Of a DNA stretch of 18,996 bases, positions 1,563 through 16,633 are shown in pieces. Origin of the DNA: Bacteroidota bacterium (GTDB lineage Bacteria; Bacteroidota; Bacteroidia; JACCXN01). The stretch covers positions 1 through 18,996 of the forward strand of contig JACCXN010000049.1 of NCBI GenBank assembly GCA_013696965.1, in the 5' to 3' direction. A program made the translations under genes and the position numbers. Position 1 is the first letter of the stretch. The number at the start of each line of letters is the position of its first letter. Below the pieces are notes generated by a model that saw nothing but the letters and a program-made list of their open reading frames with translations, made no database searches and was not told the DNA's origin.

Positions 1563-2615
1563 ATGAAATCTCTGAAAGCTCAAGGAAATAAATTCTCAAG
1601 TACTCAATATCAGTTGGAAGTACTTGAAAAAATCAGCAGCGAAGGAAGTCCTATAACAAGGTTTGAAGATAAACTTCAAACCTATGGAATATCTCCTTTA
1701 AAGCCCGCTGAACTTGAAATATTACAGGTAAATGTGGGAAAAATGTGTAATCAAGTTTGTACCCATTGCCATGTAGATGCGGGGCCGGACAGAAAAGAAA
1801 TCATGATTAGGGCAACTATGCAGGATTGTCTCAATGCACTTCGCCATGCACCCACCGTCCACACTGTTGATATGACAGGAGGCGCACCTGAGATGAATCC
1901 TGACTTTATTTGGTTTGTAAAAGAAATTTCAAAACTCGGAGTAAAAACGATTGTACGAAGCAACCTTACCATTCTTGTTTCTAATAAAAAGTATCATTCT
2001 TATCCTGAGTTTTTTGCTAAACACAAAGTAACCGTAATCGCTTCCCTCCCCTGCTATACAGCTGAAAATACGGATAAACAAAGAGGAGAAGGAGTATTTC
2101 AGAAATCAATTGAAGCATTAAAAATGTTAAATAATGTAGGATATGGAAAGGACGAGACAGAGCTTGAATTACATTTGGTTTATAACCCAATCGGCCCGTC
2201 CCTGCCACCACCACAGGATAAACTCCAATCAGATTATAAAAAAATTCTACTAGAAAATTTTGGTATTTCATTTAATAAACTTTATACCATTACCAATCTT
2301 CCTATAAGCAGGTTTTTAGAATACCTCCTGACTCTTGGCAAATTTGAATCATACATGGAAAAACTTGTTAGCTCTTTTAATCCTTTTACAATAGATGGTT
2401 TGATGTGCAGAAATACGCTTTCAGTCAGTTGGGAAGGAAAATTATATGATTGCGATTTTAATCAAATGCTCGAATTACAAACAGGGAATGGTTCTCCAAA
2501 ACACATCAGCGAGTTCAGTGCTGCAAAGCTGAAAGAACGAAATATTGTTGTGAATCAACATTGTTACGGCTGCACCGCAGGCGCAGGATCAAGCTGTCAA
2601 GGCGCTTTATTATGA
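1563..2615 (+). CDS. arsS: Arsenosugar biosynthesis radical SAM protein ArsS
   Basis: A 350-residue radical SAM enzyme. By family knowledge ArsS uses S-adenosylmethionine to attach a 5'-deoxyadenosyl group to dimethylarsenite, giving the precursor of arsenosugars. The 4Fe-4S site is the CX3CX2C motif at C62, C66 and C69 (KMCNQVCTHCHVDAGP), followed by the SAM-binding segment VDMTGGAPEMNP. The C-terminal third is rich in cysteines (MCRNTLSV, YDCDFN, and a final CYGCTAGAGSSC), the auxiliary region typical of this family, formerly DUF3641. The opening MKSLKAQGN is also typical. ATG 1563 is chosen over TTG 1542 because the promoter's -7 box overlaps TTG 1542. It is the first gene of a long plus-strand operon and its partner arsM lies in the same operon. 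Confidence 0.93.
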   Translation: MKSLKAQGNKFSSTQYQLEVLEKISSEGSPITRFEDKLQTYGISPLKPAELEILQVNVGKMCNQVCTHCHVDAGPDRKEIMIRATMQDCLNALRHAPTVHTVDMTGGAPEMNPDFIWFVKEISKLGVKTIVRSNLTILVSNKKYHSYPEFFAKHKVTVIASLPCYTAENTDKQRGEGVFQKSIEALKMLNNVGYGKDETELELHLVYNPIGPSLPPPQDKLQSDYKKILLENFGISFNKLYTITNLPISRFLEYLLTLGKFESYMEKLVSSFNPFTIDGLMCRNTLSVSWEGKLYDCDFNQMLELQTGNGSPKHISEFSAAKLKERNIVVNQHCYGCTAGAGSSCQGALL

Positions 2616-2708
2616 CCTTCAGGACTTATAATAAACAACCCATTCGCCCGATTGAACTTGGAATAGTAGGCAATAAGAAGTTGAATAATAAAGAAAAATT
2701 AAATAAAT

Positions 2709-3314
2709 ATGGCAACGGATAAATTATTAATGGTTTTTGTAAAGAATCCCCAAAGAGGCAAGGTTAAAACCCGCCTGGCTACAACTATGGGTGATGAAAA
2801 AGCACTGGAAATTTATAGAGTATTGCTCGATCATACACTGACAATTTCAAAAAGGGTGAATTGCGATAAAGCCATTTTCTATTCTGATTACATCGATGAT
2901 GGCGACATGTGGGGCAAAGCAAAATTCAGCCAGTTTGTTCAGGAAGGTAATGAGCTTGGTGAACGGATGCTCAATGCCTTTAAACAGGCCTTTTTAAAAC
3001 AATATAAAAGTGTTGTTATTATCGGCAGTGATTGTCTGGACTTGAATGAACATATAATTACGGATGCTTTTGATGTTCTTAAAAAGAATGAAATTGTAAT
3101 TGGACCTGCAAAAGATGGCGGGTACTACCTGCTTGGAATGCGAACACTTTACAAAGAGTTATTTATGAATAAACAATGGAGTACGGAGAATGTGTTACTG
3201 GATACTTTGCTTGATATAACCAAGCTTAATGTTAGCATGAAATTACTTCCAACTCTGTCCGATATAGATGAAGAAAAAGATTTAAAAATGTATCAAAATA
3301 TATTTGAGATATGA
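2709..3314 (+). CDS. TIGR04282-type arsenosugar biosynthesis glycosyltransferase (DUF2064)
   Basis: A 201-residue protein with a nucleotide-sugar transferase fold of the DUF2064/CofC-like type. Diagnostic motifs are FVKNPQRGKVKTRLA near the N-terminus (phosphate binding), IIGSDCLDL in the middle, and GPAKDGGYYLLGM, followed by STENVLLDTL near the C-terminus. Proteins with this pattern are named TIGR04282 and are recurrent neighbours of ArsS. The biochemical reaction has not been established, as far as I know; transfer or activation of a sugar for the arsenoriboside is the usual inference. There is no signal peptide or membrane segment, so it is cytoplasmic. It follows arsS after 93 bases and lies 247 bases ahead of the DUF547 gene, the longest gap within the operon. 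Confidence 0.88.
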   Translation: MATDKLLMVFVKNPQRGKVKTRLATTMGDEKALEIYRVLLDHTLTISKRVNCDKAIFYSDYIDDGDMWGKAKFSQFVQEGNELGERMLNAFKQAFLKQYKSVVIIGSDCLDLNEHIITDAFDVLKKNEIVIGPAKDGGYYLLGMRTLYKELFMNKQWSTENVLLDTLLDITKLNVSMKLLPTLSDIDEEKDLKMYQNIFEI

Positions 3315-3326
3315 AATAGCCATGAT
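3311..3326 (+). repeat. Short third match to the duplicated 95-bp leader element
   Basis: The sequence ATGAAATAGCCAT at 3311-3323 is identical to the first 13 bases of the element at 11802 and shares the first 12 with the copy at 15608. It overlaps the stop codon of the glycosyltransferase gene. Similarity fades after about 16 bases, so this is at best a remnant and could be chance. Confidence 0.35.
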
Positions 3327-3331
3327 CATAA

Positions 3332-3352
3332 AAATGAATAAGGGATTCATTT
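3332..3352 (+). terminator. Weak hairpin after the first glycosyltransferase gene
   Basis: AAATGAAT (3332-3339) and ATTCATTT (3345-3352) form an 8-bp AT-only stem with a 5-base loop, followed by a T-rich run that includes three tandem TTCAT units (3346-3360). It may slow or partly end transcription within the operon. The low stem stability makes this a weak call. Confidence 0.3.
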
Positions 3353-3382
3353 CATTTCATTTAATTTATATAGGCTGATTAA

Positions 3383-3517
3383 AAAAATAATAGAAACATC
3401 AGATTACCTGATCCGGATAATTTGAAACCTGTTGACATTTCGGAAATTATTCAAATAGCAGAAATGGCAGATGAAAAACTATCACAACTTTTAATTAACG
3501 TAATAAAAAAAATTTAA
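3383..3517 (+). other. Possible small reading frame or gene remnant between glycosyltransferase and DUF547 genes
   Basis: This frame is open for 44 codons and reads as ordinary protein, with LPDPDNLKPVDISEII followed by a helical, amphipathic end (ADEKLSQLLINVIKKI), closing with TAA 3515-3517. There is no good start: TTG 3422 would give 31 residues and ATG 3464 would give 17. I do not recognise it. It may be the tail of a lost gene or a small peptide gene. Confidence 0.25.
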
Positions 3518-3561
3518 ACTAAAACAACTGTTATCGTTAATTACACAATTTCCATAGCATT

Positions 3562-4317
3562 ATGAAAAAATTAATTTTTGCCTCATTATTTTCTTTTCTA
3601 TTCCAACAATGTAGCTCTACTACATTTATAGGAATCGGCAAAGCCCCTTCACATGAAATATGGAATGACCTTTTAAAAAAGAACGTCACACTTGATGGAA
3701 AGGTTAATTATAAAGGGTTTATAAAAGATAGCGTTGAATTCAACAAATACTTAAAACTGCTTACTGACAACCCTCCTAATGAAAAAACATGGTCGGTGAA
3801 CGAACAAAAAGCATTTTGGATCAATGCTTACAATGCCTATACTGTAAAACTGATTACAAAATATTATCCAATAAAAAGCATAAAAGATATAGGCAGCAGT
3901 ATTCAAATTCCTTTTGTGAACACACCCTGGGATGTTAAATTCATTTTCATTGGGAAAGAAAAAATGGATTTGAACAACATTGAGCATGGCCAGCTTAGAA
4001 AAAAGTTTGACGATCCAAGAATACATTTTGCCCTTGTATGTGCATCAAAATCATGTCCGGCACTTCTTAACGAGGCATACGACCCTGCAAGACTTGATCA
4101 ACAACTCGACAATCAGGCAAAGGCATTTCTGAAAGACACTTTCCGAAATAAAGTATCTGCTACCAATCCTCAACTATCCAAAATATTTGAATGGTATAAA
4201 ATGGATTTTACTAAAAAAGAATCCTTAATTGACTTTCTCAATAAATATGCTCCTGTAAAAATCAATGCCAATGCTAATATCACATACCTTGATTATGACT
4301 GGGGTTTAAATGAATAA
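3562..4317 (+). CDS. DUF547 domain lipoprotein
   Basis: A 251-residue protein. The N-terminus is a short hydrophobic stretch ending at C17 (LFQQCSS), which fits a Bacteroidota lipoprotein signal, so it is probably anchored in the cell envelope. The rest is a DUF547 domain: KAFWINAYNAYTVKLI, YPIKSIKDIG, an IEHGQLRKKF segment, then HFALVCASKSCPAL with two cysteines (CASKSC), and the closing YLDYDWGLNE. DUF547 proteins often sit next to arsS genes, but their activity is not established. The domain is clearly related to the N-terminal half of the minus-strand protein at 12581-14152, which ends the domain with the near-identical YDYDWSLNE. Its stop overlaps the start of the next gene by 8 bases, so the two are translationally coupled. 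Confidence 0.88.
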   Translation: MKKLIFASLFSFLFQQCSSTTFIGIGKAPSHEIWNDLLKKNVTLDGKVNYKGFIKDSVEFNKYLKLLTDNPPNEKTWSVNEQKAFWINAYNAYTVKLITKYYPIKSIKDIGSSIQIPFVNTPWDVKFIFIGKEKMDLNNIEHGQLRKKFDDPRIHFALVCASKSCPALLNEAYDPARLDQQLDNQAKAFLKDTFRNKVSATNPQLSKIFEWYKMDFTKKESLIDFLNKYAPVKINANANITYLDYDWGLNE

Positions 4318-5080
4318 TATGAAAATCAGCATAATCATACCCACATTAAACGAAGCTGCAAATATTGAACGGCTGATAATTCATTTGCATAAATATGGGG
4401 GAATGGATTTGCATGAGATAATCGTAAGTGATGGAGGAAGTTCTGATAGTACCTTAGAAATCGCAAGCAATGCCGGAGCAAAGGCTGTGTGTTCTGAAAA
4501 ACAAGGTCGTGCGCTTCAAATGAATTTGGGATCAAATCATTCAACGGGTGATATTCTTTATTTTGTGCATGCAGATACGCTTCCACCAATAGAATTTATA
4601 GCTGAAATTCAGAAAGCAATATTAAAAAGGAAAAAAGCTGGTTGTTTTCGATTTCGATATGATTCTGATAAAAAACTATTGGTTATCAATTCCTATTTCA
4701 CTAAATTCAATACTATTTTTAGTGGTGGTGGTGATCAATCGTTATACATTCAAAAAAACGTATTTAATGAACTAGGAGGATTTGACGAATCTTATGTGAT
4801 AATGGAAGATTTTGATTTAGTAAGTAGGCTTAGAAAAAAAAGATTCGGTTTGCATATTATTCCAAAGGAAATTTTAATTTCTGCTAGAAAATATTCGAAT
4901 AATAGTTACCTGCGTGTGAATATTGCCAACTTACTTGTTTTTTCATTGTACAAAATGGGAGTTAAGCCGGTTAAGCTCTCAGGTTTATATAAAAAACTCC
5001 TGAATCCTTTTTGTGATATGGAGAAACTCGATTTAAAATATGAAACAAAGAAGACTTTCGAAACAGATAATAAAATTTGA
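4310..5080 (+). CDS. TIGR04283-type arsenosugar biosynthesis glycosyltransferase (GT2)
   Basis: A 256-residue GT2 glycosyltransferase of the TIGR04283 type, a recurrent ArsS neighbour. Motifs in order: SIIIPTLNEAANIERLI (nucleotide-binding start), VSDGGSSDST, the family-typical KQGRALQMNLGS, FVHADTLPP holding the metal-binding acidic/His region, and GGGDQSLYI followed by GGFDESYVIMEDFDLVSRL near the acceptor site. There is no signal peptide and no strong membrane span. Transfer of a sugar onto the arsenoriboside or its product is inferred from context, not proven. ATG 4310 overlaps the upstream stop by 8 bases; ATG 4319, which gives MKISIIIPT, is an equally good start. Confidence 0.9.
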   Translation: MNNMKISIIIPTLNEAANIERLIIHLHKYGGMDLHEIIVSDGGSSDSTLEIASNAGAKAVCSEKQGRALQMNLGSNHSTGDILYFVHADTLPPIEFIAEIQKAILKRKKAGCFRFRYDSDKKLLVINSYFTKFNTIFSGGGDQSLYIQKNVFNELGGFDESYVIMEDFDLVSRLRKKRFGLHIIPKEILISARKYSNNSYLRVNIANLLVFSLYKMGVKPVKLSGLYKKLLNPFCDMEKLDLKYETKKTFETDNKI

Positions 5081-5156
5081 GAGGAGAGGAAAATGGATTT
5101 ACATATAGGCTAAAATGAAGGATACTATCGACATTAGAAAATTATGTATAAATAAC

Positions 5157-6491
5157 ATGAGTAAAAACATTGTAATAATTGGCAACGGAATATCAGGAAT
5201 AACCTGTGCAAGGCATTTACGAAAATTGAGCAAGCACAGGATTACGGTTGTTTCGGCTGAAACTGAATATTTCTTTTCGCGTACAGCACTCATGTATATC
5301 TACATGGGGCACATGAAGTTTGAGCATACCAAACCATATGAGGACTTTTTTTGGGAAAAGAACAAAATAGACCTTGTTAAAAAATTTGTAAATAAGGTTG
5401 ATACTAAAAACAAATTGGTTCTTTTTTCTGATGGTTCATCAATCGGCTACGATACACTTGTTCTTGCAACAGGCTCTAAGTCCAACAAATTTGACTGGCC
5501 CGGACAGGATTTTAAAGGTGTTCAAGGGTTATATCACTTACAGGATTTGGAAAATATGGAAGAAAATACCAAAGGTGTTTCTAGCACTGTAATTGTTGGT
5601 GGAGGATTAATCGGAATTGAAATGGCAGAAATGCTTCGTTCACGAAATATCGCTGTAACATTTCTTGTCCGTGAGAAAAACTTTTGGGACAATATTTTAC
5701 CAGTTGAAGAAGCAAAGATGATTAACCGTCATATCGGGGAGCATCATGTTGATCTTCGCCTCGAAACCGAATTAAAAGAAATCAAAGGGGATTCAACCGG
5801 GAGGGTAAGTTCCATCTTTACCAATAACGGAGAAGAAATACCCTGCCAATTTGTAGGTCTTGCCGTTGGAGTAAGCCCCAATATTGATTTTTTGAAAAAC
5901 TCAGGTATTGAAACGGACCGGGGTATATTAGTGAATGAGTTTTTTGAGACAAATATTCCGTATATCTATGCTATTGGAGATTGCGCCCAATTTAAAACAC
6001 CACCCAATGGAAGAAAACCCATTGAACAAGTTTGGTACACGGGCCGTATGCACGGAGAAACACTTGCTAAAACAATTTGTGGGCAGCGATCAGCATATTC
6101 ACCGGGGCATTGGTTTAATTCCGCCAAGTTTTTTGACATTGAATATCAAACTTATGGAGTAATAAACGCACAACAAAAAGATAGTGAAGAATCTTTTTAT
6201 TGGGAACATTCCAGTGGAAAAATAAATTTTCGGATAGTTTACGATAAAAAAGATAAAACAATTACAGGAATCAATGTATTTGGGTTCAGGCTCAGACACG
6301 AAGTCTGCGATGGATGGTTAACAGAAAAAAGAACAGTAGATTACGTAATAGAACATTTACCAAAAGCCAACTTTGATCCTGAATTTCACAAACAGTATGA
6401 ACCTGAAATAATAGAGCGATATAATAAGCAATCAGGCAAAAGTTTAAAATTAAAATCCCGGAAGGGTTTATTAGCAACATTTCTTAAATAA
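5157..6491 (+). CDS. FAD-dependent NAD(P)H oxidoreductase, NirB/rubredoxin-reductase type
   Basis: A 444-residue flavoprotein of the pyridine nucleotide-disulfide reductase superfamily (Pyr_redox_2), single-electron type. The FAD-binding GxGxxG is at residues 9-14 (IIGNGISG), the NAD(P)H-binding GGGLIG begins near residue 148, and the second FAD contact AIGDC has D275. No CxxxxC redox-active disulfide is seen, so it should pass electrons to a protein partner rather than reduce a disulfide. The adjacent polyferredoxin, 7 bases downstream, is the obvious candidate partner. A role in supplying electrons for arsenic reduction or a sugar modification is inference. ATG 5157 puts the Rossmann strand right at the N-terminus as usual; ATG 5115 would add 14 residues. 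Confidence 0.87.
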   Translation: MSKNIVIIGNGISGITCARHLRKLSKHRITVVSAETEYFFSRTALMYIYMGHMKFEHTKPYEDFFWEKNKIDLVKKFVNKVDTKNKLVLFSDGSSIGYDTLVLATGSKSNKFDWPGQDFKGVQGLYHLQDLENMEENTKGVSSTVIVGGGLIGIEMAEMLRSRNIAVTFLVREKNFWDNILPVEEAKMINRHIGEHHVDLRLETELKEIKGDSTGRVSSIFTNNGEEIPCQFVGLAVGVSPNIDFLKNSGIETDRGILVNEFFETNIPYIYAIGDCAQFKTPPNGRKPIEQVWYTGRMHGETLAKTICGQRSAYSPGHWFNSAKFFDIEYQTYGVINAQQKDSEESFYWEHSSGKINFRIVYDKKDKTITGINVFGFRLRHEVCDGWLTEKRTVDYVIEHLPKANFDPEFHKQYEPEIIERYNKQSGKSLKLKSRKGLLATFLK

Positions 6492-6498
6492 AAATTCA

Positions 6499-7854
6499 AT
6501 GGAAAATAACCCATCAATAAGCATCAGTAACCCACATCCTTCAGGAGTAGATATAATTCAAAAAACAGGACTGATCCTTTTCTCAGTAGGACTTTTATTG
6601 TTTTTAATTGCATCAACAGGTACAGGAATGAAATATCCGGTATTGCTTCTTTCCCTAAGCATTGGTTTGTCTGTGGGAGGAGCATTTATTTATTTTTTTA
6701 GAAAATATTTAACGAAATCAGCCGGGGTTAAAAATGACCAGATATGGCAAAACTCATTAACATCAAGAGGTGTATTTGCATGGTTGTTCGGAATTTTCCT
6801 TACTGGGTTTTACATTGTTATTTATTGGTTTCCGTCCGTTCTGGAAAACCTGATTCGTTTAATGGATCCTCTTAGCAACCTTATCAGAGGTAATGATTCT
6901 GATCAATGGTTTTTATACGGCACCTTGTATACATTGGCAATAGGAGTGATGGGAGTAAAAGCCCTGTTGAAATACCGGCATTCGAATTACCAGATTATCA
7001 GAACCTCTTCTATCATATTCTTTCAGTTGGGTTTTGCTTACCTCATTCCGGCAGTATTACAACTTTTTAATCAGCCTGAATTTTATTTCAGTTATTTCTG
7101 GCCACTTAAGTATGATTATTTATTTCCTTCCACAGTCAATTATTTGACAGAACAACCCGGAGCTTTGGGAGTATTTATGGTGTTTTGGGGAGCTGCAATG
7201 ATTTTTGTAGCAACGCCCATTTTAACTTATTTTTATGGGAAACGCTGGTATTGTTCTTGGGTTTGTGGTTGTGGTGGATTAGCAAATACTGCCGGAGACC
7301 CATTCCGCCAGTTATCCGATAAGTCACTTAAAGCATGGAAAATTGAACGATGGATGATTTACAGTGTTTTAGTTTTTATAATTATTACTACAAGTTTTTT
7401 GTGGATTAACTCTTACTATAATGGTTCTGTTTTTGGAAATGTATCCGGACCATTTGCTAATACCTATGGTTTTTTAATAGGTGCCATTTTTTCAGGTGTA
7501 ATCGGTGTTGGATTTTATCCTCTGATGGGAACAAGAGTATGGTGTCGTTTTGGATGTCCAATGGCAGCAATTTTGGGCATTCAGCAACGATTGTTTTCAC
7601 GGTTCAGGATCACTACTAACGGTGGGCAGTGTATCTCTTGCGGGAATTGCTCTACTTATTGTGAAATGGGAATAGACGTGAAGGCGTATGCTCAGAAAGG
7701 ACAAAATATAGTTCGTGCTTCTTGTGTTGGTTGCGGAATGTGTGCTACTGTATGTCCAAGAGGGGTTCTTAATTTAGAAAATGGGCCTTTAAAGGGGAGA
7801 GTTAATGATAACCCCATTCTTATTGGAAATAAAGAAGCAAAACTTAATTTATAA
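6499..7854 (+). CDS. Membrane polyferredoxin, NapH/CcoG-like 4Fe-4S protein
   Basis: A 451-residue integral membrane protein with about eight hydrophobic segments, the first two near residues 24-66. It has the two membrane-flanking cysteine motifs of the NapH/CcoG/RdxA family: CSWVCGC at 252-258 and CRFGC at 349-353. Two ferredoxin-type 4Fe-4S sites follow: CISCGNCSTYC (378-388) and CVGCGMCATVC (409-419, followed by P). The family moves electrons between the membrane or periplasm and a cytoplasmic partner. The flavoprotein gene lies 7 bases upstream, so the pair resembles a dedicated NAD(P)H-to-membrane electron path. What is finally reduced is unknown; this kind of pair in an arsenosugar operon is a notable feature. 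Confidence 0.88.
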   Translation: MENNPSISISNPHPSGVDIIQKTGLILFSVGLLLFLIASTGTGMKYPVLLLSLSIGLSVGGAFIYFFRKYLTKSAGVKNDQIWQNSLTSRGVFAWLFGIFLTGFYIVIYWFPSVLENLIRLMDPLSNLIRGNDSDQWFLYGTLYTLAIGVMGVKALLKYRHSNYQIIRTSSIIFFQLGFAYLIPAVLQLFNQPEFYFSYFWPLKYDYLFPSTVNYLTEQPGALGVFMVFWGAAMIFVATPILTYFYGKRWYCSWVCGCGGLANTAGDPFRQLSDKSLKAWKIERWMIYSVLVFIIITTSFLWINSYYNGSVFGNVSGPFANTYGFLIGAIFSGVIGVGFYPLMGTRVWCRFGCPMAAILGIQQRLFSRFRITTNGGQCISCGNCSTYCEMGIDVKAYAQKGQNIVRASCVGCGMCATVCPRGVLNLENGPLKGRVNDNPILIGNKEAKLNL

Positions 7855-7861
7855 TAAAAAT

Positions 7862-9379
7862 ATGCTTGTAAAAATAATCGCTGTAAAAATTGCGCTCGTC
7901 ATTGTGCTTGTATTATATACGCTTGCATTGCTGTTTATCTTTCTATATAGCATAGCACAGGCTCATTTGTTAGTTCGTTATTTGAAAGTTCAAAAGAAAA
8001 TACAACCCGGTCAATTGCCATTTAATGAAAAATTCCTTCCTCATGTAACGGTTCAACTTCCTGTTTACAATGAAATGTACGTAGTGGAAAGGCTGATTGA
8101 TACAGTATGCTCTTTTGATTATCCGCTTGACAAGCTGGAAGTACAAGTGCTGGATGATTCAACTGATCTAAGCATTGAAATTATTGAAAAAAGAGTACAG
8201 TTTTGGAAGGCAAAAGGAGTTGATATAGTACAGGTAAGGAGAACAGATCGTAAAGGATATAAAGCCGGGGCATTGGAAGAGGGGCTTGAGTTTGCAAAGG
8301 GTGAATTCATTGCTATTTTTGATGCTGACTTTGTTCCCTTAAAGGATTTTTTAAAAAAAACTATCCCGCATTTTTTTGAAAAGAATGTTGGCATGGTTCA
8401 AACCCGCTGGGGGCACATCAACAAACATTACTCTTTGCTTACTAAGCTCCAGGCATTCGGGTTAGATGCGCATTTTTCCGTTGAGCAAGTTGGAAGAAAC
8501 AGCGGTAACTGTTTTATTAACTTTAACGGAACTGCCGGTGTGTGGCGCAAATCATGCATTATTGATGCAGGAAACTGGCAGCCAGATACATTAACAGAAG
8601 ATCTTGACTTGAGTTACCGGGCTCAATTGAAAGACTGGAAGTTTGTTTATCTGGAGGATGTGGAATCACCGGCTGAGTTGCCTCCGGTGATGAGTGCATT
8701 GAAAACACAACAATACCGTTGGACCAAAGGGGGTGCGGAAGTGGCGAGAAAACATCTGGGAAATGTATTGCGTTCAGATAAGTCTTTCGTTATAAAATGG
8801 CACGGAGTATTTCATCTTTTAAATAGCGGAGTATTTGTCAGTGTTATTACCTGCGCAATCCTTAGCGTCCCTTTGCTTTTTATTAAACAATATTTTCCTG
8901 AATTCAAACAGCTATTTCTTCTAGCATCATTTTTTTTGTTAAGTTTTTTCATTTTAGCAATTTTATATTGGGTTTCAACAAACCAAAAATCAGAAAACAA
9001 ACTAAAATCCAGGCTCTATTTCATTCGTACATTTCCATTATTCCTTGCCATTATGATGGGGCTTTCATTGCACAATGCCATAGCAGTACTAGAAGGATAT
9101 TTTGGCAAGAAAACTCCGTTTATCAGAACGCCCAAGTTCAATATCATTAATAATAATGATTCGTGGGAAAGTAATAAATATATTACCGGTCAAATTAATC
9201 CGCTTACTGTAACGGAAGGGATTTTGTCCCTGTATTTTCTTTTTGCGGTTATTGTGGCGTTTCAAATCGGAGACTATGCCTTATTGCCTTTTCACATGAT
9301 GCTGACATTTGGTTTTGCGACCGTGTGTTATTACTCTGTTTTTCAATCAAAAATGATCAAAAAACCAATAAAACTATGA
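7862..9379 (+). CDS. Cellulose-synthase-like membrane glycosyltransferase (GT2)
   Basis: A 505-residue processive-type GT2. Residues ~5-30 form one membrane span, then comes the catalytic domain with LDDST (D98/D99), FDADF (D154 and D156), EDLDL (E246-D249) and the QQYRW signature at 283-287 (QxxRW), then several membrane spans from about residue 320 on. This pattern is shared by cellulose/mannan synthases and ceramide-glucosyltransferase-like enzymes. It may polymerise or add a single sugar on the cytoplasmic face with export through the membrane. Substrate is unknown; context suggests an arsenic-containing sugar or a lipid-linked acceptor. ATG 7862 is used because upstream alternatives overlap the previous gene. 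Its TGA overlaps the arsM start in an ATGA arrangement. Confidence 0.88.
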   Translation: MLVKIIAVKIALVIVLVLYTLALLFIFLYSIAQAHLLVRYLKVQKKIQPGQLPFNEKFLPHVTVQLPVYNEMYVVERLIDTVCSFDYPLDKLEVQVLDDSTDLSIEIIEKRVQFWKAKGVDIVQVRRTDRKGYKAGALEEGLEFAKGEFIAIFDADFVPLKDFLKKTIPHFFEKNVGMVQTRWGHINKHYSLLTKLQAFGLDAHFSVEQVGRNSGNCFINFNGTAGVWRKSCIIDAGNWQPDTLTEDLDLSYRAQLKDWKFVYLEDVESPAELPPVMSALKTQQYRWTKGGAEVARKHLGNVLRSDKSFVIKWHGVFHLLNSGVFVSVITCAILSVPLLFIKQYFPEFKQLFLLASFFLLSFFILAILYWVSTNQKSENKLKSRLYFIRTFPLFLAIMMGLSLHNAIAVLEGYFGKKTPFIRTPKFNIINNNDSWESNKYITGQINPLTVTEGILSLYFLFAVIVAFQIGDYALLPFHMMLTFGFATVCYYSVFQSKMIKKPIKL

Positions 9380-10344
9380 GTTACCTCGAAACAACAAAAA
9401 ATGTTTACAAAGAAGCGGCATTGAAGCCTGATGTTGGCTTATGCTGCACAACCACTCCGGTATGGCAATTGCCTGGTCTGGCAATTCCGACAAAGATGCT
9501 GCAAATGAATTATGGCTGCGGAAGCACTGTTCATCCGCGTGATCTTGTAAATAATCCAAGAATACTTTATGTCGGTGTTGGAGGGGGAATGGAGCTGTTG
9601 CAGTTTGCTTATTTCAGCAGGCAAAAAAATGGAGTTATTGGAGTGGATGTAGTGGATGAGATGTTGCAGGCAAGCAAAGAAAATTTTAATGAAGCGGAAA
9701 AACAAAACTCCTGGTTCAAATCAGAGTTTGTTGAATTAAGAAAAGGCGATGCCCTAAATTTACCTATTGAAGATGAAAGTGTGGATGTAGCAGCTCAGAA
9801 TTGCCTGTTCAATATTTTCAAAGCAGAAGATTTGAAAAAGGCACTTAGCGAGATGTATAGGGTTTTAAAACCAAGAGGACGATTAGTGCTTTCGGATCCT
9901 ACCTGTGAAACTAAAATGCCAGAAAATCTTCTCAATGATGAACGACTGCGTGCATTGTGTTTGAGCGGAGCATTGCCTCTTAAAGAATACATTAAAATGA
10001 TAACGGACATTGGCTTTGGAACGGTTGAAATAAGAGCCAAACGACCCTATCGTATCCTTGATTCAACACATTACAATACCGACAAATTGATTTATATTGA
10101 AAGTGTAGAAGTGTGTGCCATAAAAGACCCGATGCCTGATGACGGGCCCTGTGTTTTTACAGGAAAAACAGCGATTTACTTTGGTGAAGACGGATTGTTC
10201 GATGATCATAAAGGACATACTTTAATGCAAAATCAGCCTTTGTCTATTTGTGATAAAACGGCTAATGCTTTAAGGAGCCTTAACAGAAGTGGTATTTTTA
10301 TTTCTGAATCAACCTGGTTTTATGATGGCGGTGGATGCTGTTAA
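9376..10344 (+). CDS. arsM: Arsenite methyltransferase ArsM (arsenosugar type)
   Basis: A 322-residue class I SAM-dependent methyltransferase. The SAM site is [12 protein letters not shown] (residues 64-75) with acidic D91 after strand 2. The arsenic-ligating cysteines expected of ArsM are present: C143 in the family motif NCLFNIF and C195 in LCLSGALP, plus N-terminal C23/C24 and C48. By family knowledge the enzyme methylates As(III) stepwise, here probably to dimethylarsenite as the substrate of ArsS. A distinctive feature is the last five residues, GGGCC, a terminal cysteine pair that could bind As(III). Start ATG 9376 overlaps the upstream stop (ATGA), indicating translational coupling. 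Confidence 0.93.
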
Positions 10345-10367
10345 TTTATAATTTAAATTGCAAAAAA

Positions 10368-11462
10368 ATGAAAATATTATTTCTCTATTTACAAATTTCA
10401 CTAATTATTTCTGCCTGTTCGCAGCAAAATAAAAAAGCCGAGGAAAATAGTTTAGGCTATAATAATATTGAACTTCAGGATACAAGCTGGACAGATAAAG
10501 TTGTGAAAACCAAAGAAGAGTGGAAGAAAATACTTACACCCGAACAATACAATATCACAAGAGAACAGGGAACAGAGGTGAAGTTTAGTAGTCCATATAA
10601 TAAAAACCATCAATCGGGATTATATTATTGCGTTAGTTGTGGTATTCCGTTATTTAGTTCAGAAAATAAATTTGAATCAGGAACAGGATGGCCGAGTTTC
10701 TGGAAACCTTATTCGCAAAAGAGTGTACAAATTGCAACTGATAATTCTATCGGAATGCAACGTGACGAAATATCTTGCGCCCGTTGTGATGCTCACTTAG
10801 GGCACGTTTTTAATGATGGGCCACAGCCCACGGGCTTGAGATATTGCATTAATGGAGTGACATTGCTTTTCAACGCAACAGACAGTAAACCAACCAATGA
10901 TCTCTCGGCATACAATAAAGCTACATTCGCGGCAGGTTGTTTCTGGTGTGAAGAAGCCGTTTTTGAAGGTGTGAAAGGTGTGGCAGAGGTAATTTCCGGA
11001 TATTCAGGAGGCACTACCAAAAATCCCTCTTATGAAGAAGTAGGAAGCGGTACCACAGGCCATGCAGAAAGCATTGAAATTTATTATGACTCCACCAAAG
11101 TAAGTTATCAAAATTTGATTAAAGTATTTTTTGCATCTCAGGATCCCACACAGGTGAATGGCCAAGGGCCGGATGAAGGTACGCAATATCGATCCATTGT
11201 TTTTTACAGAAACCTTTACGAAAAACAACTAACTGAAAGTTATATTAATGAATTAAATAAATCAGGTAAATATAAAAAACCTATCGCTACTCAGGTAATA
11301 CCTTATAAAGAATTTTGGAAAGCTGAAGATTATCATCAGAATTATATTCATCACCACCCTACCGATGCGTATGTTCAGCATGAATCAATTCCGCGAATTA
11401 AGAGAACACAGAAGCAGTTTCCTGAGCTTTTTAAACCTGAACGTTTGATAATTGAGAAGTAA
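10368..11462 (+). CDS. msrBA: Exported bifunctional methionine sulfoxide reductase MsrB-MsrA
   Basis: A 364-residue fusion, MsrB first and MsrA second. The N-terminus is a lipoprotein signal with the lipobox ISAC17, so it acts in the envelope. MsrB (about 45-170) has zinc cysteines C88, C91, C137 and C140 and catalytic C160 in RYCING. MsrA (about 185-350) starts with the catalytic GCFWCE (C191) and continues with VISGYSGG and [20 protein letters not shown]. Together they repair both S- and R-methionine sulfoxide in proteins. It lies 23 bases after arsM and 7 bases ahead of the next gene. In this context it may protect envelope proteins against oxidation that accompanies arsenic stress; that link is inference. 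Confidence 0.93.
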
Positions 11463-11469
11463 TCGTATT

Positions 11470-11763
11470 ATGAAAACAAAATTGATATTTGTGTATAATG
11501 CCGATGGCAATTTATTTAGTAAAACAATTGATTTTGCTCACAAGATACTTTCCCCCTCTACCTATGCTTGTAACCTTTGCAGTATTACTTACGATAATTT
11601 CGGAATGAAGAAAGAATGGGCTGAATTTCTTCGCAAATTAAATATGGAAACGATATTTTTTTACAAAGATGAGTTTCTAAAAAAGTACGGCAAACAAAAA
11701 ACGGAATTTCCGGTTATCTTTATTGACAAAGAAAATTCAATGGAAGTATTAGTTCAAAATTAG
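11470..11763 (+). CDS. Small conserved CxxC protein of unknown function
   Basis: A 97-residue soluble protein. The first strand, KLIFVYNADGNLFSKTIDF, and the following KILSPSTYACNLCSITY carry the features I recognise from a conserved small family sometimes given the doubtful label 'GTPase'; no GTPase motifs are present. C34 and C37 form a CNLC pair that could bind a metal or arsenite or do thiol redox work, and the later FPVIFIDKEN strand suggests a thioredoxin-like fold. There is no signal peptide, so it is cytoplasmic. It follows msrBA by 7 bases in the same operon. The function is not known. Confidence 0.75.
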   Translation: MKTKLIFVYNADGNLFSKTIDFAHKILSPSTYACNLCSITYDNFGMKKEWAEFLRKLNMETIFFYKDEFLKKYGKQKTEFPVIFIDKENSMEVLVQN

Positions 11764-11801
11764 AGCAGGTATCACAGCAAAACTCAAATCACAAAAATAA
11801 A

Positions 11802-11895
11802 ATGAAATAGCCATAATTCTTGAAGAAATACCAACCGAAAATGAATATATGGCGTATTCCATTTGACCAACAAGAAAAATTATATACAAATGAAA
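11802..11895 (+). repeat. Direct repeat, copy A, ending at the redoxin start codon
   Basis: This 94-base element begins ATGAAATAGCCA and ends at the ATGAAA that starts the following gene. Its first 68 bases match the copy at 15608-15703 at 58 positions with no gaps; the remainder aligns with a 2-base length difference and ends in TTATATACA. Both copies carry the same short open frame ending in TGA (here at 11864-11866), reading EIAIILEEIPTENEYMAYSI. Sequence before the element and after the start codon is unrelated between copies. Confidence 0.9.
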
Positions 11896-12486
11896 CAATT
11901 TAAAATAACTTTCATCGCACTAACCGTCTTCTCAAGTCTGTCCTTTATTTATATGAACCAGGATAATCCCAGCGGACTCAAAAAAGGCGAAAAAGCACCA
12001 GCATTCATTGCAAAAGATCATGCCGGTAATAGTATTGATCTTTACTCAATTTTACAGAAGGGTCCGGTGGTCCTGATGTTTTATAGAGGTGAGTGGTGTG
12101 GATACTGTACCAGGGAAATGAGTGAATTTCAGGATTCACTTCATTATATTACAGAAAAAGGAGCCTATGTTATTGCCATTACTCCTGAAACCAACAATAA
12201 CATCAGCAAAACGATTGAAAAAACAAAAGCCTCCTTTTCAATTATCCACGATGAAGAATCTAAAATTATGACTTCATATAAAACAAGTTTTGTTGTGGAT
12301 AGTGCAACAGTTGAGAAGTATAAAAAATGGAACGTTGATTTAGAAGAAGCGAATGGCAATAAGGATCATATCTTACCGGTACCTGCAACTTATGTTATTG
12401 GTAAAGATGGAATTATTAAATACGTTTTTTTCGATAAGGATTATAGCAAAAGAGCTACTGTAAAAGATATTATCAATGCTCTATAG
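11890..12486 (+). CDS. Exported peroxiredoxin-like (AhpC/TSA, redoxin) protein
   Basis: A 198-residue protein with an N-terminal hydrophobic segment (about 5-21) that acts as signal peptide or anchor, then a thioredoxin-fold redoxin domain. The active site is WCGYC (C70, C73), preceded by VVLMFYRGEW, as in the peroxiredoxin-like subgroup; PATYVIGKDGIIKYVF is the cis-proline strand. It probably reduces peroxide or thiols in the periplasm, and would fit beside the exported MsrBA. ATG 11890 lies exactly at the end of the direct repeat; TTG 11863 is an in-frame alternative but starts inside the repeat. The gene is the last of the first operon and faces the minus-strand DUF547 fusion. Confidence 0.87.
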   Translation: MKQFKITFIALTVFSSLSFIYMNQDNPSGLKKGEKAPAFIAKDHAGNSIDLYSILQKGPVVLMFYRGEWCGYCTREMSEFQDSLHYITEKGAYVIAITPETNNNISKTIEKTKASFSIIHDEESKIMTSYKTSFVVDSATVEKYKKWNVDLEEANGNKDHILPVPATYVIGKDGIIKYVFFDKDYSKRATVKDIINAL

Positions 12487-12580: not shown

Positions 12581-14152
12581 TTACCTGATAACTCGTACTC
12601 CAAAGTTGAAAGTTTGTCCTGCCCCGGCATTCATGCCCATAGTGAATTTTGTGTAAAGCACCTCGGTTTCCAACAGCCCCGGAATCAATTGAAATTTCAA
12701 TCCAACACCCTCTTGCCTGAACCAGGAGGAAATCCCCTTCTCATTATATGAAGGCCAAAACTCATTTTGAACATAAACTGTAACCCTTTTGGAAGGAAAC
12801 CAACTTAGAAAGACATCCAATGGTGTTGCAAGGTTTATTGATTTTGTTTCAAATGTTTTATTAACAGAAAGCCAGGGGGCAAGCTGAAAGAAAAGTTGAA
12901 ATTTATTTCCAATAGAATGATCGTAATAAAATTGTGTAATAAGAAAATATCTGTCGGCACTCAGGTATGGCTTGCCGTTTGACGCTCCTTCCTGATCTTT
13001 TGATACGGGAATAAGAAAGGTGCTTTGTACGGAAAGGTGGGCAAGTTTTTTAAATGGTGCGATTTTTATTTTCGGGCCAACAGATGAAATTGCTGTGCGG
13101 GTATTGGGTGTATTCTCAAATTTTAATAATGCAAAAGGTGAACTTGTTTCTGAATCATTCCTGACAGATTTTATCCACATATCGGCTCCAATACTTAGTC
13201 TGGGCGAAATGCCAATCAGGAACTGGTTAATAGAAGAAAAATAACTAGAACGGGAATGGTAGTTTATTTTATTTCCGTCCTTATCGAACCCTTCAGTTTG
13301 TGTATAAAGGTTGTTGAAAAATTTATACTCCCATTGATTTCGTTTGAGTAAAACAGAAGGTGTATATGCCTGTATATTAGCTGTTTTTTGTGTTGGATCT
13401 GAGAGTTGTTCAGTATTATTCTTATTAAATTCATTTAACGACCAGTCGTAATCGTAATAATCTACCTTATAATCTTCCGGGATTTTATTTTCACGATATT
13501 TATTAATGAACCCTATAACGCTTGACCCATCTTGTTTAAAATCTTCTTCATACCATTTGAAAATTTCGGACAAAAGGACTTTTTTCTCAGCATCGTTCAC
13601 TGTGATAAAATTATTGTTGTTGAGCGCTGCTTTTGCCTGAACATCCATTTGATTTTCAAGTTTGTCGGGCAAAAAAGCATTGCTTATTATTGGCGGACAG
13701 CCATTGGCTCCACACACCAGTACAAAATGCAATCGGGCATCTTTATAAACAGGGCGTAATTCTTTATTTTCAATTTCATCAAGTGTTATTTTTTTTCCAC
13801 CAACCTCATACTTGATACCATTATAAAATCCTGAAATATCCATCGGTGATTTTATTGGATAGTGATCCACTACATTTTTTATTACAAGAATATTGTAAGT
13901 ATTAATCAGGAATGTTTTTTTTACATTTTCCGGAAGTAACTCAAAATGAATGTTCCTAATTTGAATAGTTAAACTATCTAATTCCTTTCTGTCAGAATGA
14001 ATCGCTGAATAGTTCACCAATCCATTGCTTACATACTGATTAAAAAAGCGGTTTGCCGATGAGAAAAAGTCATCCGCTTCATTTTGAGAATAGGCAGTAT
14101 GAAATGTAAAAACAGTAACGATTGTATAACAAATTTGCCTGAGATAACCCAT
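12581..14152 (-). CDS. DUF547 domain fused to a probable outer-membrane beta-barrel
   Basis: A 523-residue exported protein: a signal peptide (MGYLRQICYTIVTVFTFHTAYSQ) is cut near residue 23. The N-terminal half is a DUF547 domain, with FLINTYNILVIKNVV, YPIKSPMDISG, LHFVLVCGANGCPP (two cysteines, as in the other copy) and closing YDYDWSLNE. The C-terminal ~270 residues have alternating aromatic/polar strands, glycine-rich turns and a final strand ending GVRVIR, as expected of an outer-membrane barrel. So the DUF547 domain would sit on a membrane-bound scaffold. ATG 14152 is preferred over GTG 14188 because it starts directly at the signal peptide. It is divergent from the MORN-like gene and is the only minus-strand gene between the two operons. 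The barrel call is inferred from pattern only. Confidence 0.8.
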   Translation of the reverse strand: MGYLRQICYTIVTVFTFHTAYSQNEADDFFSSANRFFNQYVSNGLVNYSAIHSDRKELDSLTIQIRNIHFELLPENVKKTFLINTYNILVIKNVVDHYPIKSPMDISGFYNGIKYEVGGKKITLDEIENKELRPVYKDARLHFVLVCGANGCPPIISNAFLPDKLENQMDVQAKAALNNNNFITVNDAEKKVLLSEIFKWYEEDFKQDGSSVIGFINKYRENKIPEDYKVDYYDYDWSLNEFNKNNTEQLSDPTQKTANIQAYTPSVLLKRNQWEYKFFNNLYTQTEGFDKDGNKINYHSRSSYFSSINQFLIGISPRLSIGADMWIKSVRNDSETSSPFALLKFENTPNTRTAISSVGPKIKIAPFKKLAHLSVQSTFLIPVSKDQEGASNGKPYLSADRYFLITQFYYDHSIGNKFQLFFQLAPWLSVNKTFETKSINLATPLDVFLSWFPSKRVTVYVQNEFWPSYNEKGISSWFRQEGVGLKFQLIPGLLETEVLYTKFTMGMNAGAGQTFNFGVRVIR

Positions 14153-14274
14153 AAATAGAAAAATTGTAAGTTCCAAAGAAAATAACACCTGAACTATTAA
14201 ATTGTCGCCTGAAAGACAAAAGGTATAAACGCTAATTAATTACCTTGCAGGCAGTAAATATAATTCATTTTTAC
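14153..14274. promoter_or_regulatory. Divergent promoter region
   Basis: These 122 bases separate two divergent genes and must hold promoters for both. On the minus strand TTTG (14217-14220) and TAGTTCAG (14189-14196), 20 bases apart, fit the Bacteroidota spacing, with four of six fixed -7 bases matching. No good match is seen on the plus strand. Confidence 0.35.
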
Positions 14275-14916
14275 ATGCACTATCAGCATAAACCATTTGT
14301 TGCATTGTTGCTTGCTATCCTGGTAGTTTCCTGTGGTAATAACAATGACAACAATTATTCTCCCGAATATAATAAAAAAGTGTATCATGCTCCTACCAGT
14401 ACCATTGATACTGTGCCAATAAAGGATGAATATGTAAGGGAATATTATTCCAACGGAAAAATAGAATCTGAGGGGTGGATAAAGGCAGCCCGGAAAAATG
14501 GTTATTGGAGATATTATCATCCAAATGGAAAACTTTTTAAGCAGGGTAATTATTTAAATGATTTGATGAGCGGCTGGTGGCAGGAATTTAGAAAGGACAG
14601 TACATGCGTATGTCAGGGCCAATATTCCAATGGGAAAAAGGAGGGTTACTGGATGTATTTTTATCCCAATGGGGAACTTCAGAAACAGGGCAGTTTTATT
14701 AATGATAATATGATTTCGTGGTGGAAGGAATACAATGAGCAAGGTAATTTAACTTATGAAGGGGAGTATAACAATAGAATTAAAGAAGGGTACAGCAAAA
14801 GCTATAAGAATGGTATATTGCAAAGCGAAGGCAAATACATTAACGGAAGGCAAAGAGGAAGATGGAAATATTATGACGAACTTGGTAAAATGATAAAGAT
14901 TCAAGAATATGACTAA
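14275..14916 (+). CDS. MORN-like repeat (YwqK-type) lipoprotein
   Basis: A 213-residue lipoprotein with lipobox VVSC (about residue 20). The body is five to six degenerate MORN-like repeats of the kind YYSNGKIESEG..., G.W.YYHPNGKLFKQGNY, YSNGKKEGYWMYFYPNGEL and so on, each about 20-25 residues. Such proteins are commonly labelled 'YwqK family antitoxin', but nothing here suggests a toxin partner; an envelope or surface binding role is more likely. ATG 14275 is chosen because it opens directly onto the signal sequence. Its stop overlaps the next gene's start by 8 bases, so it heads the second operon and is coupled to the Dpm1-like gene. Confidence 0.82.
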   Translation: MHYQHKPFVALLLAILVVSCGNNNDNNYSPEYNKKVYHAPTSTIDTVPIKDEYVREYYSNGKIESEGWIKAARKNGYWRYYHPNGKLFKQGNYLNDLMSGWWQEFRKDSTCVCQGQYSNGKKEGYWMYFYPNGELQKQGSFINDNMISWWKEYNEQGNLTYEGEYNNRIKEGYSKSYKNGILQSEGKYINGRQRGRWKYYDELGKMIKIQEYD

Positions 14917-15604
14917 AAAGAAAAATATAGTGGTAATTATTCCTGCTTTTAACGAGGAGAACTCAGTTGGGCATGTTATTAGAGATTTGCCCAAAGACTT
15001 TATAAGCGAAGTGATAGTAGTAAACAATAATTCCAATGATAACACCAAACTAAACGCACAAAAAGGCGGGGCAACGGTTCTTGATGAAAAGCGTCAGGGA
15101 TATGGTTACGCCTGCCTGAAAGGAATTGCATACGTAAAAGAAAAAATTCACAAGCCGGATATTGTTGTTTTTATTGATGCTGATTATTCTGATTATCCCC
15201 AGGAAATGATAGCGCTTGTACAACCGATAATCGAACAGGATTACGATATGGTGATAGGATCCAGGGCGCTTGGAAACAGAGAAAGGGGGTCTATGACACC
15301 ACAACAGATTTTTGGAAATAAATTAGCAACAAGCTTAATGAAGTTTCTTTATGGAGTAAAATATACCGACCTCGGCCCTTTCAGAGCAATAAAATTTGAT
15401 AAACTATTAGAATTGGAAATGAGGGACACTACCTATGGATGGACGGTAGAAATGCAATTGAAGGCTGCAAAGAAAAAGATGAAAGTAACGGAAGTGCCCG
15501 TTAATTATAGAAATAGAATAGGGTTTTCCAAAATAAGCGGGACGGTTAAAGGCACTATTATGGCAGGATATAAGATTATCACCACTATTTTTAAATACAT
15601 TTAA
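14909..15604 (+). CDS. Dpm1-like polyprenyl-phosphate sugar synthase (GT2)
   Basis: A 231-residue GT2 enzyme of the dolichyl-phosphate mannose/glucose synthase-like subfamily. Motifs: VVIIPAFNEENSVGHVI, VVNNNSNDNT, the metal-binding DAD at 90-92 (FIDADYSDYPQEM), GSRALGNRERGSM, and YTDLGPFRAIKFD, followed by the typical TYGWTVEMQLKAAKK. It lacks C-terminal membrane spans, as in Dpm1 itself. By family knowledge it moves a hexose from a nucleotide sugar to a polyprenyl phosphate. The GT-C enzyme two genes downstream is the kind that uses such donors. The sugar and the final product are not visible from sequence. Confidence 0.88.
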   Translation: MTKKKNIVVIIPAFNEENSVGHVIRDLPKDFISEVIVVNNNSNDNTKLNAQKGGATVLDEKRQGYGYACLKGIAYVKEKIHKPDIVVFIDADYSDYPQEMIALVQPIIEQDYDMVIGSRALGNRERGSMTPQQIFGNKLATSLMKFLYGVKYTDLGPFRAIKFDKLLELEMRDTTYGWTVEMQLKAAKKKMKVTEVPVNYRNRIGFSKISGTVKGTIMAGYKIITTIFKYI

Positions 15605-15607
15605 ACC

Positions 15608-15703
15608 ATGAAATAGCCAAGATTCTAAAGGTAACACCAACCGAAAATGGATATTTGGCGTATTCCATCTGACCATTAAAAAACAAATTATATACAGATG
15701 AAA
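15608..15703 (+). repeat. Direct repeat, copy B, ending at the lipoprotein start codon
   Basis: This 96-base partner of the element at 11802-11895 begins 3 bases after the stop of the Dpm1-like gene and ends at the ATGAAA of the next gene. Its frame reads EIAKILKVTPTENGYLAYSI and ends in TGA at 15670-15672. Two of the ten base differences in the ungapped 68 bases are silent in this frame (CTT/CTA, ATT/ATC). Confidence 0.9.
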
Positions 15704-16633
15704 AGAACTTTTCTTATTTTATTTATTCCCCTAATTTCATTGAATTGTGGGAACAATCTTGCCCTGGAAAAGGGATCGACTATAACAGAAGAATTTGCTA
15801 AATACTGGTATAGTGGCAAAGCTGAAATAACAAGCTATAAACTCCAGCAGGCGCGTTATGGAGAAATGCATGCAGGCTCCGCTGTAACCATTTTTGTTAC
15901 GGAAGATTTTTCTGCAAAAAAGCATGTCAAACTGGATAATCCTCAAAGTGCAGGCAGTGATGCTGTAAGTGTGCTGAAGCTAAATCTTACAAAAAATTTT
16001 AATACAGGAATTTACCCTTATTCCATGATGCTCTCTGTTTTTAAGCCAATAAATACAAGCAAATGGGAACATGCATTAAAAATAACAGCATCATCACAGG
16101 AATGGTGTGGACATACATTTACTCAAATAGATGCCGATAAAGATAAATACAATGCAAAACTTTTTTCCTATTTTGAAAGTGAAGGAGATCAGGAAAAAAT
16201 ACTTCCTTTGGTTTGGATGGAAGATGAGCTGTGGACATTATTACGGATAAATCCATCAGGCTTACCAATAGGCAATATAAAAATCATTCCCGGATTATTA
16301 CAGCAACGATTACTCCATACAAATCTTCAGGCAGAAGATGCAGGCGCATCATTGGTAAATGTCTCTGAAATACCTTCCTGGATTGGAGCAGAAAAGAATT
16401 TAATGAGTTATTCAATCACTTATAAAGAAAAGCAAAGAACCCTGAGAATCTATTTCAGCGAGGGATTTCCTCATGCCATTGCCGGATGGGAAGAAAGCTA
16501 TCCTGATGGCTTTGGCAAGGATAAAAAAACGTTGACAACGAGGGCCGTAAAAGATAAAACAATAATTACGGATTACTGGAATCATCATCATAATAGCGAT
16601 GCTGCTCTGCGTGATTCTCTTGACTTGAAATAA
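15698..16633 (+). CDS. Conserved lipoprotein of unknown function
   Basis: A 311-residue protein with an N-terminal lipoprotein signal (lipobox LNC17). I recognise the opening FAKYWYSGKAEITSYKL, followed by QARYGEMHAGSAVTIFVTEDF, from a conserved Bacteroidota family that databases often label 'septum formation inhibitor Maf'; no Maf nucleotide-pyrophosphatase motifs are seen, so that label is not supported. A central QEWCGHTF segment and a YDG-like ending are the other landmarks. Its start lies at the end of direct repeat copy B. Its stop shares one base with the next start (TAATG), so it is coupled to the GT-C gene. Function unknown. Confidence 0.75.
   Translation: MKRTFLILFIPLISLNCGNNLALEKGSTITEEFAKYWYSGKAEITSYKLQQARYGEMHAGSAVTIFVTEDFSAKKHVKLDNPQSAGSDAVSVLKLNLTKNFNTGIYPYSMMLSVFKPINTSKWEHALKITASSQEWCGHTFTQIDADKDKYNAKLFSYFESEGDQEKILPLVWMEDELWTLLRINPSGLPIGNIKIIPGLLQQRLLHTNLQAEDAGASLVNVSEIPSWIGAEKNLMSYSITYKEKQRTLRIYFSEGFPHAIAGWEESYPDGFGKDKKTLTTRAVKDKTIITDYWNHHHNSDAALRDSLDLK

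Follow-up and report, generated by a model that had tools for sequence, protein, structure and literature searches.

Merger of an arsenosugar core with a conserved glycosyltransferase and redox block at one Bacteroidota locus

In seaweeds, organic arsenic occurs mainly as arsenosugars and arsenolipids; to our knowledge, the steps beyond the arsenoriboside are not settled. The closest described system is the arsenosugar cluster of NCBIfam, which comprises ArsM, ArsS, TIGR04282, TIGR04283 and TIGR04169. ArsS was characterised by Cheng et al. 2021, as cited in PMC12159101. The stretch of DNA analyzed here, hereafter the window, is an entire contig of 18,996 nucleotides (JACCXN010000049.1; contig C49 of genome G000), part of the 3.86 Mb draft genome of a Bacteroidota bacterium (GCA_013696965.1), in which ArsS and ArsM genes occur together with glycosyltransferase and redox genes. 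We resolved two modules at this locus: a known arsenosugar core (module A) and a syntenic block, DUF547-FAD-polyferredoxin-GT2(AglJ-like)-membrane GT2-GT87 (module B), where GT2 and GT87 are glycosyltransferase families. The modules share the TIGR04282, TIGR04283 and DUF547 steps, and an envelope-linked glycoconjugate is thus the likeliest output. We assign a probability of roughly one half to the reading that two conserved modules have merged here and that their output is such a glycoconjugate, one that bears arsenoribose in genomes encoding ArsS and ArsM. Taken alone, the core is an arsenosugar operon of an ordinary, already known kind; the novelty lies in the conserved block, which was previously undescribed, in the way it is merged with the core, and in a purine nucleoside phosphorylase (PNP) that has decayed.

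Module A is predicted, with high confidence and from established family functions, to make an arsenosugar. In searches of the window with hidden Markov models (HMMs), these members of it scored above the curated cut-offs: ArsS, the arsenosugar radical SAM enzyme with a CxxxCxxC motif and a DUF3641 C-terminus (1563..2615, plus strand, as are all features below unless stated; TIGR04167, 452 bits, cut-off 300), TIGR04282 (2709..3314; 210.5 bits, cut-off 134), the soluble GT2 TIGR04283 (4310..5080; 219.8 bits, cut-off 182) and ArsM of the arsenosugar subtype (9376..10344; NF038099, 571.5 bits, cut-off 400). An HMM survey of the phylum placed TIGR04167 above cut-off in 121 of 296 genomes, and in a comparison of 81 ArsS loci of the phylum, ArsS was usually found next to TIGR04282 and TIGR04283. 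The original prediction, made from the sequence of the window, counted three glycosyltransferases; TIGR04283 and the membrane GT2 are assigned as such, whereas TIGR04282, a GT-A protein with a weak CofC match, is uncertain, its nearest characterised relative being the nucleotidyltransferase CofC. It is likely, judging from its sequence, to be either a nucleotidyltransferase or a glycosyltransferase. Fusions of TIGR04282 and TIGR04283 into one protein (L051:12579-13934, L095:6910-8301 and L096:6989-8272) support consecutive steps. We found no open-access paper on the block or on the function of TIGR04282 or TIGR04283.

The genes from ArsS to a redoxin lie on one strand in the order ArsS, TIGR04282, DUF547 lipoprotein, TIGR04283, flavoprotein, polyferredoxin, membrane GT2, ArsM, MsrBA, small protein and redoxin, with intergenic distances of -10 to 99 bp and a single exception of 247 bp between TIGR04282 and DUF547. 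All members of this set, as originally named, are present and belong to the expected families, ArsS, TIGR04282, TIGR04283, ArsM and MsrBA scoring above curated cut-offs. The tight spacing and start-stop overlap reported around the membrane GT2 were borne out by measurement: the FAD gene (5157..6491), the polyferredoxin gene (6499..7854) and the membrane GT2 gene (7862..9379) are separated by 7 bp each, and the last of them shares 4 bp with arsM (ATGA at 9376-9379). Other overlaps are those of arsM with msrBA (10 bp) and of DUF547 with TIGR04283 (8 bp). The end of the set had been placed too early, at 12486. The glycosyl/redox part runs on to 18003, with conserved partners that had been missed: a MORN-repeat lipoprotein (14245..14916), relatives of which lie downstream of the polyferredoxin in L119 and L128; a soluble AglJ-like GT2 of the polyprenyl-phosphate hexose synthase kind (14909..15604; AglJ model 129 bits, under cut-off); a predicted EipB/LolA-like lipoprotein with a curved beta sheet, kept in the block (15698..16633); and a GT87/MptB-like membrane GT-C glycosyltransferase (16633..18003; weak GT87 match, MptB 29.8 bits).

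The comparison set included more than 150 loci. The block was seen in several families, frequently accompanied by DUF547, MORN or relatives of lipoprotein 15698-16633, and in named records of Algoriphagus, Hymenobacter, Cyclobacterium and Pontibacter. A longer reading in two genomes gave the order FAD, polyferredoxin, AglJ-like GT2, membrane GT2, GT87, and the GT87 ortholog ends the block in L112, L113 and L213. The most similar polyferredoxin found (72%) belongs to L154, in which both modules stand side by side and msr genes are also within the block; in L050 and L096, the AglJ-like GT2 is directly downstream of ArsS. A polyferredoxin scan of 84,980 species yielded loci in Bacteroidota, Calditrichota, Dadabacteria, Gemmatimonadota, Planctomycetota, Methylacidiphilum, a metagenome-assembled genome of Myxococcales, and Sulfidibacter. 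In several loci, GH113 mannanase-like lipoproteins are encoded next to the block, and a fatty-acid-hydroxylase/OlsE-like protein recurs in arsenosugar clusters (L083, L127, L128, L193:3726-4568 and L154:1381-2130). Together with the families of the block, these proteins point to an envelope glycan or glycolipid as the probable product.

Association with ArsS was examined in a panel of 80 genomes, 40 with and 40 without ArsS, using Fisher tests that ignore kinship. The AglJ-like GT2 was present in 35/40 ArsS-positive versus 9/40 ArsS-negative genomes (p = 5e-9) and the polyferredoxin in 28/40 versus 9/40 (p = 4e-5); within the class of the window, the latter frequencies were 20/21 and 5/20 (p = 3e-6). 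The distance between ArsS and the polyferredoxin was at most 25 kb in 12 of 28 genomes, for which the chance level is p = 7e-11 at a conservative count of 9. When polyferredoxin-retrieved loci were without ArsS, it was encoded elsewhere in 35 of the 50 genomes. In the neighbourhood check that had been proposed, co-occurrence of ArsS, the polyferredoxin and the GT2 thus extended beyond close relatives, to 20 of the 21 ArsS-positive genomes of the class and to other families and phyla. The FAD-polyferredoxin pair was found in 7 of the 81 ArsS loci, window included. The membrane GT2 was rejected as a regular ArsS neighbour, being within ~10 kb in only 3/81 loci and usually elsewhere in the genome, and it is a poor block marker, with relatives at 425-580 bits in many block-free genomes. 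The earlier interpretation is accordingly upheld in part. Its proposal of a larger or membrane-linked product containing the arsenosugar has only indirect support: co-occurrence favours it, whereas the rarity of the membrane GT2 near ArsS and the existence of the block as a module of its own, also without ArsS, do not.

Several observations weigh against the reading of two merged modules. Five genomes of the class (G045, G064, G158, G162 and G182) contain the block, divided over two contigs in some of them, and neither ArsS nor the arsenosugar ArsM; four further genomes of the phylum have the polyferredoxin and the AglJ-like GT2, again without these two genes. G182 retains TIGR04283, DUF547, PNP and TIGR04282 within ~25 kb of the block (L134, G182:C16:892000-911900, which also encodes an AhpD-like protein). 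Conversely, many ArsS-positive loci (families f18, f22 and f24) hold just ArsS-TIGR04282-TIGR04283, and in other phyla the FAD-polyferredoxin pair frequently stands alone. The panel tests take no account of shared ancestry, and we know of no block enzyme with a known substrate. Among ArsS-negative genomes, TIGR04283 is found in 7/9 with the block versus 1/31 without it. TIGR04283 thus seems linked not only to ArsS but also to the block, as does TIGR04282 in G182, and the block cannot be purely arsenic-specific. Given its presence in genomes that have neither ArsS nor ArsM, our preferred reading of the block is a pathway for an envelope glycoconjugate that has steps in common with arsenosugar synthesis. 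We regard it as evenly balanced whether the modules act in a single pathway, and as somewhat doubtful that arsenic ends up in the product of module B.

The same genomes lacking ArsS and ArsM are expected if module B makes an envelope polysaccharide or glycolipid independently of the arsenosugar genes and simply adjoins them in this lineage, with the pair possibly serving the envelope or general electron transfer. This explanation, which we consider possible with the odds somewhat against it, also accommodates the mannanase-like lipoproteins beside the block and the Algoriphagus loci, which have a complete block and no arsenosugar gene within 10 kb (ArsS is elsewhere in 2/3 such genomes tested); the recurrent linkage to ArsS in distant families and the presence association argue against it. 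A separate, unrelated role for the pair was also tried and rejected: clustering of the genes around 100 polyferredoxin loci revealed no other partner common to distant lineages, and most of the unlabelled clusters were lineage-specific. Alternatively, the pair belongs to arsenosugar synthesis, where its electrons go to ArsS or into the reduction of As(V), and the glycosyltransferases alone come from another pathway. L080, L088 and L110, which have the pair alongside ArsS and TIGR04282 but neither a GT2 nor GT87 nearby, are consistent with this, as are L050, where the pair is immediately upstream of ArsS, and Methylacidiphilum L204, where ArsS and the AglJ-like GT2 are divergent from the pair. 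The pair is missing, however, from the ArsS-positive genomes of families f18, f22 and f24, so that ArsS does not generally depend on it, and the pair remains with the block in ArsS-negative genomes; we find this alternative rather unlikely. A plain resistance locus with housekeeping genes alongside is very improbable. MsrBA and the redoxin are general stress proteins, as such a locus might have, but the ArsM is of the arsenosugar subtype (571 bits), and no pump, ArsC or ArsR is encoded among the open reading frames (ORFs) of the window, as originally stated, the search for ArsC and ArsR being confined to it. With both ArsS and ArsM belonging to the arsenosugar type, the earlier preference for biosynthesis over simple resistance is well supported. 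An interrupted Acr3 arsenite pump gene is present on another contig (G000:C38:37562-38528, L235), in three pieces in different frames, and represents a pseudogene or an assembly error.

The 247-bp gap (3315-3561), previously passed over, was found to contain the PNP remnant. A search of the window's own genome with a nucleoside phosphorylase query matched 3410-3508, and the gap encodes, in one frame, the final 35 residues of PNPs and a stop codon (3410..3517, tblastn), with 45-71% identity to 15 phosphorylases of related clusters. The best match was the PNP of L038 (E = 3e-14, 71% identity); in the control, i.e., the remaining intergenic stretches of the window compared to PNPs, the best E was 0.07. 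By its sequence, 3410-3517 is a decayed PNP. L193 keeps the window order arsS-TIGR04282-PNP-DUF547-TIGR04283-FAD-polyferredoxin with additional genes interspersed (a 280-aa protein after arsS and a PiT-type transporter after PNP), and its PNP is full, so the remnant occupies the site of an intact gene in a relative. A full nucleoside phosphorylase, seen in relatives and not obligatory, is absent from the window cluster; a more distant full copy (51% identity) is on contig C41. PiT-type phosphate transporters adjoin arsenosugar genes in L193:6054-7160, L227:19811-20932, L096, L150 and L214, and arsenate entry or a phosphate link is possible.

Under the reading of two merged modules, ArsM makes dimethylarsenic and ArsS then adds the 5'-deoxyadenosyl group, both functions having been shown for the families. 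PNP would remove adenine from the ArsS product, a role that the C41 copy may serve now that the local one has decayed. TIGR04282, given its CofC-like fold, probably activates arsenoribose phosphate, and TIGR04283 would transfer the activated arsenoribose. Electrons from NAD(P)H would flow through the FAD protein and the polyferredoxin to a reaction at the membrane, which may be the activation of ArsS or the reduction of pentavalent arsenic. AglJ-like GT2s fall among the synthases of polyprenyl-phosphate sugars, which serve as donors for GT87/MptB-like enzymes; the AglJ-like GT2 may thus make a polyprenyl-phosphate sugar that GT87 uses on the outer face, with the membrane GT2 extending the glycan or glycolipid, and the DUF547 and EipB/LolA-like lipoproteins would act in the envelope. 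The broadest version is a widespread pathway in which polyprenyl-phosphate sugars, GT87 and the membrane GT2, supplied by the FAD-polyferredoxin electron line, lead to a glycolipid or glycan of the envelope that contains arsenoribose; genomes devoid of ArsS and ArsM would use the same machinery to make a product free of arsenic. We consider this version improbable.

The individual proteins of the block were characterized further. The DUF547 protein has a signal-like N-terminus (3562..4317; PF04784, 98.9 bits, cut-off 27), 36-73% identity to 32 homologues in the compared loci, and invariant H155, C160 and C165. Its AlphaFold model (predicted local distance difference test, pLDDT, 91) had no clear match in the PDB (Foldseek best E 1.5, VIA Z <=4.3), so no function was drawn from the fold. 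The FAD/NAD(P) oxidoreductase, of the ferredoxin reductase/NirB/CoA-disulfide reductase kind (Pyr_redox_2, 183 bits; its ORF opens at 5115), is nearest to the solved structures 3lxd, NoxA-3 and ferredoxin-NAD reductases. HMM matches and hydropathy identify the polyferredoxin as a NapH-like 4Fe-4S membrane protein with ~7 membrane segments; a distinct 826-aa relative is encoded near ArsS in L095 and L096 (4388-6905), with similar proteins in families f17, f35 and f40. The membrane GT2 has ~5 membrane segments by hydropathy and BcsA as its closest solved structure; its D, DxD, TED and QQxRW motifs, combined with membrane helices, are those of a processive-type enzyme (D, DxD, ED, QxxRW), and D98/D99, D154/D156, E246/D247 and Q283-R286-W287 are invariant in three members. 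The predicted model of lipoprotein 15698-16633 (pLDDT 85) aligned with the DUF1849 structure 6ntr (VIA Z 14.4, 209 residues aligned, root-mean-square deviation 4.1), and the fold common to EipB/LolA and this model suggests an envelope role.

The other genes of the window are an MsrB-MsrA fusion lipoprotein (10335..11462; NF004042, 348 bits, cut-off 330), a small protein with CxxC that is kept beside the block in Pontibacter L227 (11470..11763), an exported AhpC/TSA redoxin of the TlpA/ResA kind, an HMM match and window-specific neighbour (11863..12486), and, on the opposite strand inside the locus, a DUF547 domain with a long C-terminal region (12581..14188, minus; PF04784, 75 bits), relatives of which flank the block in L119, L126 and L128.

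The ArsS-associated block provides named candidate genes for steps beyond the arsenoriboside, and natural controls are available in those genomes that lack ArsS and ArsM but retain the block together with TIGR04282 and TIGR04283. The merged locus makes it testable whether some bacteria place arsenic sugars in the cell envelope. It should be noted that the NCBIfam name "arsenosugar biosynthesis glycosyltransferase" for TIGR04282 and TIGR04283 is context-based and may be too narrow.

Compared to the NCBIfam arsenosugar cluster, the window shares ArsS, ArsM, TIGR04282 and TIGR04283 and differs in having a PNP remnant only, an extra envelope block and no TIGR04169; this peroxidase-like protein, frequent in such clusters and not obligatory, was not found in the genome (best match 31 bits versus a cut-off of 120). 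The membrane GT2 shares the DxD, TED and QQxRW motifs and membrane segments with the BcsA/PgaC kind, but reaches only 107.8 of the 699 bits set for UDP-forming cellulose synthase, is under every NCBIfam cut-off, and gave no match to a PilZ domain. The polyferredoxin has Fer4_5 and two C-terminal 4Fe-4S cluster motifs in common with the NapH/MauN membrane ferredoxins; unlike these, it has no nap genes nearby, and an FAD reductase is its partner in 91/100 polyferredoxin loci. Finally, the GT2 and GT87 of the block differ from the AglJ and MptB systems in scoring under the cut-offs and in being bacterial, whereas they resemble AglJ/dolichyl-phosphate sugar synthases and GT87/MptB enzymes in family-level similarity and in the conserved pairing of both genes.

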